A program made the position numbers and the translations under genes. A DNA stretch of 28,993 nt. It comes from a virus. The notes under the pieces were generated by a model, which was given only the letters and a program-made list of their open reading frames with translations, searched no databases and was not told the origin of the DNA. The DNA is taken from positions 1-28,993 of IMG/VR virus record IMGVR_UViG_3300049216_000571. One strand, written 5' to 3'. Below, one piece after another: positions 19,770 through 22,515 of this stretch (its first letter is position 1; each line of letters starts with the position of its first letter).

Positions 19770-20213
19770 ATGAGCATCCTTACAAGCGTTGAACAGTTTT
19801 TTGAGAATTTGTGGAATAACGTCCTCAAGCCGGACGTTGAGGAAGCAGAACAAGTGGTCGATACTTTCTTTGTGTCCGCTGAATCGGCTGTTGAAAATGA
19901 ACTCGGCGTCGCAGGCCTCAAGATCGTGACCGATGCCGTTGCCGCTGCTGAAAATGCGGGTGGAACCGGCGTTCAGAAACTGGCTGCAGCAACAGCTTCG
20001 ATTGTTTCTAACCTGTCCGCTGCAAATATCCTCAATGTGGCGACAAACACTATCAATGTCGCAATCGAAGCCGCCGTTGCCGCGATGAATTCTGCGGAAA
20101 CACCAAGTGGCGGATCACAGGCATTGAGCGATCCATCCCAAGCTACCGGCAATGACAACAACAGTGGTTCAACCGATGCCAACACCGGTACCACAACGTC
20201 ATCGCCCAAATAA
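19770..20213 (+). CDS. Unknown protein in lysis cassette, 147 aa
   Basis: The first 105 residues are helical and Ala/Val-rich with an aromatic N-terminus (VEQFFENLWNNVLKPDVEEAEQ); AENAGGTGVQKLAAA resembles the central part of some phage small lysis-associated proteins. The last 40 residues are a low-complexity tail of Ser, Thr, Asn and Gly. No clear transmembrane span is visible. It lies between endolysin and a membrane protein, so a role in lysis is plausible, but I do not recognise the family. GGAG is eight bases before the ATG. The 83-base gap upstream contains small inverted repeats (CGCG-TTTA-CGCG). Confidence 0.6.
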   Translation: MSILTSVEQFFENLWNNVLKPDVEEAEQVVDTFFVSAESAVENELGVAGLKIVTDAVAAAENAGGTGVQKLAAATASIVSNLSAANILNVATNTINVAIEAAVAAMNSAETPSGGSQALSDPSQATGNDNNSGSTDANTGTTTSSPK

Positions 20214-20235
20214 GAAAACAGACAAGGAGATAACT

Positions 20236-20601
20236 ATGAGCGCCCTCAGCCTTATCACTGCTGCGATTAAAAACTTTCAGCCCACGACAAGTGTTCTGGC
20301 TGGGGGCGCCGCTAGTATCATTACCTGTGCCATCGGTGCCGTTCTCGTCGCTGCTGGTGTTGCCATCCCGCCAATAGGCATTCTCGGCCTGACGGCGGCA
20401 ACGCCTTTGACCATGACAATGGTTATGAGCGCCGCTGTGCCTATCGGCCATGTCGTGACGGCGCTTGTTCCGGACAGCGTCAATCAGCAATTGAACGGAC
20501 TCGCGCAGAAACTACAAGTCGATGTTGCGAAGCTTAAAAGTTTTATTCCGCAGGAATATTACTCGGACGACGATTTTCCGAAGGATCGGAACGGCGTTTG
20601 A
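20236..20601 (+). CDS. Holin-like small membrane protein
   Basis: A 121-residue protein with two long hydrophobic segments at about residues 19-43 and 47-78, separated by a Pro-Pro turn, and a charged C-terminus (QVDVAKLKSF, DDDFPKD). Size, topology and its place after an endolysin suggest a holin that permeabilises the inner membrane. The start at 20236 has AAGGAGAT six bases upstream; an earlier in-frame start would add a Pro/Thr-rich stretch overlapping the previous gene. Its TGA overlaps the start region of the methyltransferase. Confidence 0.68.
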   Translation: MSALSLITAAIKNFQPTTSVLAGGAASIITCAIGAVLVAAGVAIPPIGILGLTAATPLTMTMVMSAAVPIGHVVTALVPDSVNQQLNGLAQKLQVDVAKLKSFIPQEYYSDDDFPKDRNGV

Positions 20602-21164
20602 ATGGCGTGGCTTTATCTTCCGCTGGTAACAGACACCATGCTGGCGGCGGGAAAGCCGTATTCGGACTTTCACTCTGTGCTGGCGCCGGAGGCCTCGATC
20701 TCGGACTCCACATCGCCATGCCCGGATATAGAACTATTTGTTATGTCGAGCGGGACGCCTACGCCGCAGCCACTCTCGTGGCGCGGATGGAAGACAAGGC
20801 CCTGGATCAAGCGCCTGTCTGGGACGACCTTACAAGTTTCGACGGCAAACCGTGGCGCGGCCTCGTGGATATCGTTCATGGCGGTTATCCATGCCAACCT
20901 TTTAGCGTCGCCGGACGAAAACTCGGCGATAAAGACCCACGACACCTCTGGCCCCATATCCGACGCATCGTCGCCGAAATCGACCCGCCGCTTTGCTTCT
21001 TCGAAAATGTCGGCGGACATTTACGATTGGGCTTCGAACAAGTCGATGATGACCTTCGATCGATGGGTTACCGTGTTGCGGCTGGCTTGTTTGCAGCGGA
21101 GGAAGTCGGCGCTCCCCATAGACGAGAACGATTGTTCATCCTGGCCTACCGCCACAGCAACTGA
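20598..21164 (+). CDS. DNA (cytosine-5) methyltransferase, catalytic half
   Basis: 188 residues holding most C5-methyltransferase motifs: motif I FGLSLCAGAGGLDLG (residues 22-36), an acidic motif II ERDAY, motif IV GGYPCQPFS with nucleophile Cys99, motif VI ENVGG (136-140) and motif VIII GAPHRRERLFILA (171-183). It stops immediately after motif VIII, so the target recognition domain and motifs IX-X are missing from this frame. The start is TTG at 20598 (or GTG at 20607), overlapping the holin stop. A one-base shift near 21140 would continue into the target-domain-like sequence in the other frame. It may be half of a split enzyme, a frameshifted gene, or affected by a sequencing error. Confidence 0.85.
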   Translation: MNGVALSSAGNRHHAGGGKAVFGLSLCAGAGGLDLGLHIAMPGYRTICYVERDAYAAATLVARMEDKALDQAPVWDDLTSFDGKPWRGLVDIVHGGYPCQPFSVAGRKLGDKDPRHLWPHIRRIVAEIDPPLCFFENVGGHLRLGFEQVDDDLRSMGYRVAAGLFAAEEVGAPHRRERLFILAYRHSN

Positions 21165-22131
21165 CTCAAGGGTCAATGAAGCCAGGCCGCCAGAAAAGAT
21201 GATCCGTAAAGATGGCCGGAATGTTTTGCGCACCCCTTCGCTTGCTGAAACCGTTTTGCAGCCCCTGGATTTTCCATACACAAAACAAGATCTCGACTTA
21301 GCGCATCAAGAACTTCCTTATCAGGTTGCCAAAGCCCATTGGCCGACAGCGACGGCAACTGATGGCGAAAAAGGTGGCCCGAATAGTCGGCATGGTAACG
21401 GCACTCTGCATTTGGCCGCCGCCGCAGTTCAAACACTCTGGTACACGCCGAATTGTCCGAACGGCGGCCGAACCAATCCGGCTGATATGTCTTTGACCGG
21501 CGCAATGCCAGACGGGCGAAAACGACAAGTCGGCCTTGAAAATCAGGCGCGGTTTGTATGGCCGACGCCGATGGCTAATCCGAACACAAACCGGCAAACG
21601 AAACCAACACCTTCACAAATGAAAGGCGAGCATGGCCTCAATCTGGCGATGGTCGCGGTTCAATCCTCATGGCCGACACCGCGTACATGCGCCGGCAAAA
21701 GATCAAGTGGCAGCAATCGAACTGAAATTGTGAATTCGTGGGCGACGCCGCAAGCGCATGACGTTGCGCAAGGCAATCCTGAAAGAGTTGGACGCTTTGG
21801 AACAAAAGCTGGCGGTCGAAACTTAACCGATGAAGGTGTCGCATGGGCAACGCCGATGAGCCGCGACTGGAAGGACGGGGCGGCAACGTCGGACAACGTG
21901 CCGACCAACTCGATCCTTGGCCGCCAGGCCCCACGGAGCATGAAAGATGGGAATGCATCGACCCTCAGCTTAAACCCGCTGTTTGTCGAGTGGCTTATGG
22001 GATGGCCTATCGGGTGGACAGATTGCGCCTCTGCGGTAACGGCGTCGTCCCACTGGCTGCAGCTTATGCGTTCCGAACTCTCGCGGCTGCTGCAGGCGTC
22101 GACGTCTGACCAGCTCGATCTTTTCGCTTAA
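20602..22131 (+). CDS. Frame +1 ORF with methyltransferase variable / C-terminal region
   Basis: Open for 509 codons from an ATG at 20602. Only the part from about 21142 (residue 181) onward looks like protein: repeated WPTATATD-type units (residues 181, 247, 319 and on), WATPQAHDVAQGNPERVGRFG, WATPMSRDWKDG, and a conserved end LNPLFVEWLMGWPIGWTDC followed by QLDLF. Such WPT-repeat regions and the MGWPIGWT end are typical of the variable C-terminal part of phage C5-methyltransferases. The first 180 codons overlap the catalytic half in another frame and look like its shadow. Most likely the real product begins by frameshift or re-initiation near 21110-21142. Confidence 0.6.
   Translation: MAWLYLPLVTDTMLAAGKPYSDFHSVLAPEASISDSTSPCPDIELFVMSSGTPTPQPLSWRGWKTRPWIKRLSGTTLQVSTANRGAASWISFMAVIHANLLASPDENSAIKTHDTSGPISDASSPKSTRRFASSKMSADIYDWASNKSMMTFDRWVTVLRLACLQRRKSALPIDENDCSSWPTATATDSRVNEARPPEKMIRKDGRNVLRTPSLAETVLQPLDFPYTKQDLDLAHQELPYQVAKAHWPTATATDGEKGGPNSRHGNGTLHLAAAAVQTLWYTPNCPNGGRTNPADMSLTGAMPDGRKRQVGLENQARFVWPTPMANPNTNRQTKPTPSQMKGEHGLNLAMVAVQSSWPTPRTCAGKRSSGSNRTEIVNSWATPQAHDVAQGNPERVGRFGTKAGGRNLTDEGVAWATPMSRDWKDGAATSDNVPTNSILGRQAPRSMKDGNASTLSLNPLFVEWLMGWPIGWTDCASAVTASSHWLQLMRSELSRLLQASTSDQLDLFA
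21843..22109 (+). CDS. Methyltransferase motif X fragment in the original frame
   Basis: An 88-codon frame, the same as that of the catalytic half, nested in the WPT-repeat ORF. It reads NADEPRLEGRGG, PWPPGP, then MAYRVDRLRLCGNGVVPL with AAAYAFRTLA, a good match to motif X of C5-methyltransferases. GAAGG lies six bases before its ATG. A TGA at 21831 separates it from upstream sequence. It could be a separate small subunit, as in natural two-subunit C5 enzymes, or a relic of an undivided ancestor. Confidence 0.5.
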   Translation: MGNADEPRLEGRGGNVGQRADQLDPWPPGPTEHERWECIDPQLKPAVCRVAYGMAYRVDRLRLCGNGVVPLAAAYAFRTLAAAAGVDV

Positions 22132-22155: not shown

Positions 22156-22515
22156 ATGAGCAATGATCAAACGATCACCCTCGGTGGTCGTGAATTTCCC
22201 GTTGCGCCCTTAACGCTGGGGCAGTTACGTCAGGCAGGCCCAGCCTTCACACGCATCGGCATAGATACGCCTGAGGGCATGGGCGCGCAGTCCACAATTA
22301 TTTATCTCGCCATGCACGCAGCCAATCCCAAAGTGACCCCCGCCGAAGTGGACGGAATTGTCGGCGTGACCTTTCCCGAACTGAAACAGGCCGTCGAAGT
22401 CGTTGCCAGACTGATGGGCGTCGAAATGCGGGCTATCGAACCGGGGGAAGCACAGCCGGTGGCTCCGGCAACAGCCTCGCCAACCTCGACTGGATCGACA
22501 TCTACGGCGTCCTGA
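22156..22515 (+). CDS. Tail assembly chaperone, G-like
   Basis: A 119-residue protein placed directly before the tape measure gene. The N-terminus is of the form found in alphaproteobacterial G-like chaperones (TITLGGREFPVAPLTLGQLRQAGPAF), followed by a helical part (VTFPELKQAVEVVARLMGVEMR) and a Pro/Ala/Ser/Thr tail that has little character, as expected for sequence after a frameshift point. It would coat the tape measure protein during tail assembly. AGGAG is seven bases upstream of ATG. Confidence 0.85.
   Translation: MSNDQTITLGGREFPVAPLTLGQLRQAGPAFTRIGIDTPEGMGAQSTIIYLAMHAANPKVTPAEVDGIVGVTFPELKQAVEVVARLMGVEMRAIEPGEAQPVAPATASPTSTGSTSTAS

Follow-up and report, generated by a model that had tools for sequence, protein, structure and literature searches.

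Overlapping same-strand reading frames in phages probably encode a C5-cytosine methyltransferase as separately started polypeptides

The window, meaning the whole stretch of DNA analyzed here, is the IMG/VR virus contig IMGVR_UViG_3300049216_000571 (28993 bases), which carries terminase, portal, head, endolysin, holin, and tape-measure genes. Its methyltransferase locus has the holin region on one side and tail genes on the other. The methyltransferase is flanked by two ORFs (20152-20601 and 22156-22515), neither of which had a PHROG match, and the second directly precedes the tape measure gene. The following features were identified at the locus.

20598..21164, + strand: alpha-N, catalytic part of a C5-cytosine methyltransferase with motifs I-VIII (PF00145, phrog_363)
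20602..22131, + strand: beta, a 509-aa ORF in the +1 frame (frame 1; homologous ORF in all distinct loci, stop depletion)
20602..20622, + strand: beta N-terminus MAWLYLP (motif conserved in relatives; ATG 4 nt from the alpha start)
21142..21969, + strand: putative target-recognition modules, confined to the beta frame and marked by seven W-x-T-(P/A) boundaries (beta third positions vary)
21832..21836, + strand: Shine-Dalgarno-like GAAGG ahead of the motif-X ORF (GAAGG or GAGGG in 7/8 split loci)
21843..22109, + strand: candidate gamma, the C-terminal alpha piece with motif X and its own ATG at 21843 (phrog_29583 match, constraint, ATG in 8/8 split loci)
21969..22026, + strand: dual-coding core, beta LNPLFVEWLMGWPIGWTDC over alpha LKPAVCRVAYGMAYRVDR (both frames conserved; ratios for the 3' region, R3, below)

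As originally predicted, motifs I-VIII were found in frame 3, in an ORF that starts at TTG 20598 or GTG 20607 and stops at 21164, just past motif VIII. This frame matched PF00145 (E 6.9e-32, residues 24-187), and alpha-N matched phrog_363 (E 4.6e-50). Frame 3 contains GYPCQPFS (20883), ENV (21003), and HRRER (21117), and C5 motifs I, IV (PCQ), VI (ENV), and VIII are all present in the catalytic domain. In an alignment of 79 alpha sequences, the PCQ and NV columns were invariant, as were the G and N of motif X (GNxVxP), which reads GNGVVP at 22035-22052 of the window in frame 3. Substitutions in alpha-N fell mostly at third codon positions.

The ATG of beta lies 4 nt past the TTG of the frame-3 ORF, and beta remains open across alpha-N, the modules, and the motif-X segment. 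The W-(P/Y/A)-T-(P/A) boundaries begin at 21142, 21340, 21439, 21559, 21670, 21739, and 21844 in frame 1, and across these modules the alpha frame contains 14 stops. The WPT region had been placed in frame 1 from about 21142; the boundaries do begin there, but the ORF itself opens over the whole of the catalytic domain. At the 3' end, LNPLFVEWLMGWPIGWTDC (21970-22026, frame 1) overlaps LKPAVCRVAYGMAYRVDR (21969-22022, frame 3), which continues into GNGVVP. The claim that both frames are recognizable at the 3' end therefore held, but the overlap spans the whole gene and is not limited to that end. The predicted ATG and GAAGG of the frame-3 motif-X segment were also present.

We searched for relatives of beta in viral contigs (about 250 loci) and GTDB genomes (85 bacterial loci), retaining the best 80 and 79, and ran two extra viral scans with the catalytic part and the motif-X part as queries. 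After removal of duplicates, 238 distinct loci remained. In every one of them (238/238), beta occupied the +1 frame with respect to the catalytic part, and in 207 of the 238, motifs I-VIII and X were found in a single uninterrupted ORF, denoted alpha. Typically, two ORFs of about 245 to 500 aa overlap each other nearly end to end. One additional locus has the identical layout plus a +2 match. In 13 loci, the window included, motif X stays in the alpha frame but is carried by a separate ORF. In six loci (L053-L055, L100, L103, L104) it is found in the beta frame, an arrangement like that of M.AquI, while in four others (L056, L061, L074, L138) beta is nested within alpha, which also carries a LNPDWVEWLMGFP segment where it was read out. 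L025 possibly holds two tandem or recombined copies: about 1.5 kb separates its catalytic part from a second set of beta and motif-X matches, and the frames differ.

To ask how often the second frame would be open by chance, we shuffled synonymous codons so that one protein stayed the same and counted the stops arising in the other frame. Over the catalytic region, 3 beta stops were observed against 285 expected. Over the linker between motifs VIII and X, no alpha stops were observed against 490 expected, in a set of 201 loci chosen for an intact alpha; the fair figure, given this selection, is 207 intact loci among the 220 with motif X in frame 0. The depletion of second-frame stops was thus about 100-fold relative to synonymous permutation. 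It was also found in a divergent sample of one locus from each of 51 clusters under 70% identity, with 12 catalytic-region stops against 115.7 expected and a stop-free linker in 44 of 46 clusters against 9.2 expected. Among loci fetched by alpha-side queries only, 4 stops were observed against 76.6 expected, while the +2 control frame of such loci had 211 against 320. The control genes flanking the same loci were at expectation (341 stops vs 342.6). The synonymous permutation and the control genes rule out openness by chance through high GC content, and 21 loci under 55% GC are open as well, where about 1.5 with an open linker would be expected. Because the layout recurs in 207 of the 238 loci, second-frame stops are depleted, and the control genes are at expectation, the two-frame layout is more than chance.

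We then analyzed selection on each frame in 83 locus pairs, with each locus used once and changes classed by their effect on both frames. Such pairwise ratios model transition bias and phylogeny only incompletely; the alpha value in the module region (R2) serves as an internal control. Where modules have been exchanged, the module region of a pair may differ in age from its two ends, in either direction. In the catalytic region (R1), the ratio was 0.19 for alpha and 0.57 [0.50-0.62] for beta, compared with 0.78 [0.61-0.98] in the same pseudo-frame of control genes; over the catalytic domain, constraint on beta thus exceeds that in control genes by only a modest margin, and the two confidence intervals almost meet. 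In R2, beta was at 0.35 [0.29-0.41] and alpha at 1.02 [0.95-1.09]. In the 3' region (R3), the two were nearly equal (beta 0.43, alpha 0.42), and neither frame evolves neutrally, as a check of selection on both 3' frames in homologs had been proposed to decide. Both ends of the gene are therefore constrained in two frames, while the middle of alpha is open yet without amino-acid constraint, like a linker.

We considered whether beta looks conserved over the catalytic domain only as a shadow of alpha, and this is partly true: the beta profile also matches the +1 frame of single-chain enzymes. For this reason we relied on stop depletion, the N-terminal motif, and the control ratios. In the dual-coding core, the consensus of 199 loci is LNPxFVE(W/A)LMGWPxGWT in beta and L(E/K)PAV(R/C)RxADGLAxRVDRLR in alpha; these loci were picked via the beta motif, so the beta-side conservation there is by choice.

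The original prediction held that a single one-base change near 21140 would fuse the first two parts, but every relative has the same +1 relation, which does not fit a local lesion or read error there. Decay or sequencing error of a single-chain gene, as the 14 frame-3 stops between motifs VIII and X might suggest, is hardly credible. The same frame relation occurs in all relatives, from many assemblies; motifs I-VIII and X share a frame, so that no single indel accounts for the layout; and all pieces are under purifying selection. The frame layout of the relatives, selection, and the linker stop counts rule this explanation out. A functional split enzyme rather than decay, as had been suggested, agrees with the frame relation and with purifying selection on both 3' frames, the clade of the window included.

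We found a MxWLYxP-like motif opening beta in the +1 frame of 175 out of 227 loci, and in only 2 and 0 in the other frames. The starts of alpha and beta are mostly spaced by 4 nt, or by 2 or 5 nt where their order is reversed, and ratios in the leader were 0.53 [0.42-0.68] for beta and 0.66 [0.52-0.85] for alpha. By these sequence criteria, beta has its own conserved start.

This start bears on the possibility that programmed ribosomal frameshifting yields a single chain, with a +1 shift past motif VIII into beta and a -1 shift near LNP back to motif X. The parts would then fall in the normal order of a C5 enzyme, single-chain forms exist in actinophages, and a C-TTA-AAC heptamer is found at the LNP codons of all eight loci with a split alpha (8/8). 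However, this heptamer also encodes conserved residues and re-pairs poorly in the -1 frame. Two shifts would be required, the conserved start and N-terminal motif of beta would be useless if beta were reached by shifting only, and a stop-free, unconstrained alpha linker in 207 loci would be pointless if ribosomes left alpha there. We give frameshifting a small chance, and the frame-switching target domain put forward originally is likewise the less likely option, given the start and N-terminal motif of beta. Separate starts remain the preferred reading.

Mycobacterium phage Rita has a single-chain enzyme whose variable region matches the beta modules and the LNP segment in frame, and beta is for this reason most likely the target-recognition part. 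Pfam and NCBIfam searches with beta alone returned no family, its AlphaFold model was poor (mean pLDDT 52.7), and a PDB structure search with this poor model gave no match. The target-recognition domain (TRD) between motifs VIII and X is thus present by homology, in the beta frame, and the beta model is too poor to show its fold or to speak for or against this assignment. In the AlphaFold model of alpha (from L007), the catalytic part was confident and matched M.HhaI and M.HaeIII with Foldseek, while residues 200-380 were disordered (pLDDT about 34-50). The missing family and poor fold would also suit a beta that overlaps the methyltransferase by position only and does another job, for example in anti-restriction or regulation. 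We regard this as very improbable: single-chain phage C5 enzymes carry homologs of the modules and the LNPxFVEWLMG segment in their in-frame variable region, and an ordered recognition domain is missing from the alpha model itself.

The modules repeat and are common to distant loci. One of them, ARPPEKMxRKDGRNVLRTPSLAETVLQxxDFPYTKQDL, was found at 21168-21300 of the window and in the otherwise distant loci L056, L061, L053, and L007. Because one module is common to the window and to distant loci, module exchange between phages is suggested. At the module joints (21142-21844 of the window, and related loci), the DNA is TGGCCGACGCCG or close variants, which translates to WPTP in the beta frame and to (L/V/M)ADA or something close to it in the alpha frame; this repeated DNA could be a seam for module exchange. 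Multispecific phage C5 methyltransferases have several exchangeable recognition modules with different target sites, and the repeated modules here may be of this kind.

The two precedents named in the original prediction, M.AquI and M.EcoHK31I, are fitting ones. The small ORF of M.EcoHK31I lies in another frame of its large ORF. Both of its polypeptides are required, the large one carrying motifs I-VIII and X together with the predicted TRD, and the small one carrying motif IX (PMC3404938). An alpha with motifs I-VIII and X on one chain and a partner in an overlapping frame was likewise found in 207 of the 238 relatives, and the best reading for the family is a two-polypeptide C5 methyltransferase resembling M.EcoHK31I. 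In contrast to M.EcoHK31I, beta here spans nearly all of alpha, starts beside it, and carries several modules that appear exchangeable; the TRD would lie in beta rather than in the large subunit; and in the window alpha is in two pieces, separated by 14 stops, rather than on one chain. M.AquI is a natural two-subunit C5 enzyme in which motifs I-VIII are apart from IX-X (PMC3404938). Motif X there is with IX in the second subunit, whereas in the window motif X is in frame 3 and beta in frame 1. Gordonia phage Float294 gp62/gp61 and the six loci with motif X in the beta frame resemble M.AquI. In Float294 (L277, 1597-2830), two adjacent 'DNA methylase' genes overlap by 14 bases and are split after motif VIII as in M.AquI. 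Rita gp76 is a single-chain C5 enzyme with the same parts in the same order and LLPTP modules, but everything is in one frame.

A phage C5-cytosine methyltransferase built from separately started polypeptides of overlapping genes is probably what the locus encodes. In most of the family, alpha would consist of motifs I-VIII and motif X connected by a long linker free of amino-acid constraint, while beta, in the +1 frame with a start a few bases from that of alpha, would carry exchangeable recognition modules together with the LNPxFVEWLMGWPxGWT segment. Alpha and beta would assemble into a single enzyme, alpha providing the chemistry and SAM binding and beta the DNA specificity, which the modules would set. 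Protection of the phage DNA from host restriction would be a likely benefit. We infer translation, assembly, and activity from the observed frame layout, its conservation, the constraint on each frame, and the homology of each piece.

The clade of the window (the window, L002, L003, L004, L006, and L107-L109) differs in that alpha is split, with 4 to 14 stops in the linker. In the window, 14 linker stops were observed against 11.1 expected, about neutral, as in most clade members; fewer than expected were found in L004 (8 vs 13.4) and L006 (4 vs 8.6). The alpha-frame pNN/pSN of alpha-N in this clade was 0.11. In the motif-X frame from WPPGP on, the alpha NN/SN was 0.33 [0.13-0.65], and beta over the motif-X segment was at 0.40 [0.15-0.87], both from six related sequences that are not independent. 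The motif-X frame thus appears to be under constraint in this clade. An ATG precedes the motif-X piece in all eight split loci, with a Shine-Dalgarno-like GAAGG or GAGGG in seven and CGAAAG in L006. Both the ATG and this site fall on conserved beta codons, which in part forces their conservation. Across the family, only 115 of 740 module boundaries have an A in front of TGG, so the ATG is not simply forced by beta.

It is conceivable that no motif-X piece is made in this clade, in which case the conservation would reflect the overlap with beta, and the enzyme would be dead or independent of motif X. The sample is small and beta does constrain the same bases, but we consider this unlikely. The alpha NN/SN was taken among beta-nonsynonymous sites, and the same ratio is at unity (1.02) in the linker, where only beta is constrained. 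All split loci also keep an open motif-X frame and its ATG. Because the alpha linker is lost, the enzyme in the clade of the window would have three pieces, alpha-N (motifs I-VIII), beta (recognition), and gamma (motif X, from ATG 21843), and the simplest reading of the split clade implies this third polypeptide. On balance, we lean towards a C5 enzyme of three polypeptides within a widespread and largely unrecognized class of full-length same-strand overlaps in which one frame is a stop-free, unconstrained linker. If true, the three-piece form shows how far nature can divide a methyltransferase.

Gene callers usually dismiss long overlapping genes on the same strand. Apart from the Paenibacillus larvae phages described below, the phage records we examined annotate one of the two ORFs, mostly alpha, as does the record of an E. 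coli prophage; in Pseudomonas phage phPA-G and Komagataeibacter phage phiKX1 the annotated ORF is beta. This suggests that many phage methyltransferases annotated as complete may lack an annotated recognition subunit, and the annotated gene expressed alone could fail or mislead specificity assignments. As a large comparative case, the family also allows both frames to be tested: some regions are under dual constraint, and in another one frame is kept open without amino-acid constraint. Our literature search returned no paper describing the layout as a class, but covered subscription papers poorly and so is weak evidence of novelty.

In GenBank, a nested +1 ORF was annotated by the depositors of Paenibacillus larvae phages (Diva 'g49 internal gene', g49/DIVA_50; Bloom, BLOOM_56/57, the ORF being BLOOM_57). 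These phages share with the family a +1 ORF in the C5 methyltransferase gene, W(G/A/P)TP modules, and LNPDWVECLMGFPIGWTD, and differ in that beta is only nested, starting inside alpha. The nested ORFs lie at 1201-1905 in Diva (L274) and 801-1505 in Bloom (L276). In the available part of the published account, the layout is annotated without discussion (PMC6070908). Salmonella phage S9-5 (L189) has an unannotated 246-aa +1 ORF at 1942-2682, starting MSWLFSQ, over an annotated DNA cytosine methyltransferase. Copies close to this phage gene were found in only 4 E. coli genomes in a search for near matches. In the E. coli PT62 prophage (L275, 1501-2238), the DNA is 94.6% identical to the S9-5 copy and the methyltransferase alone is annotated.
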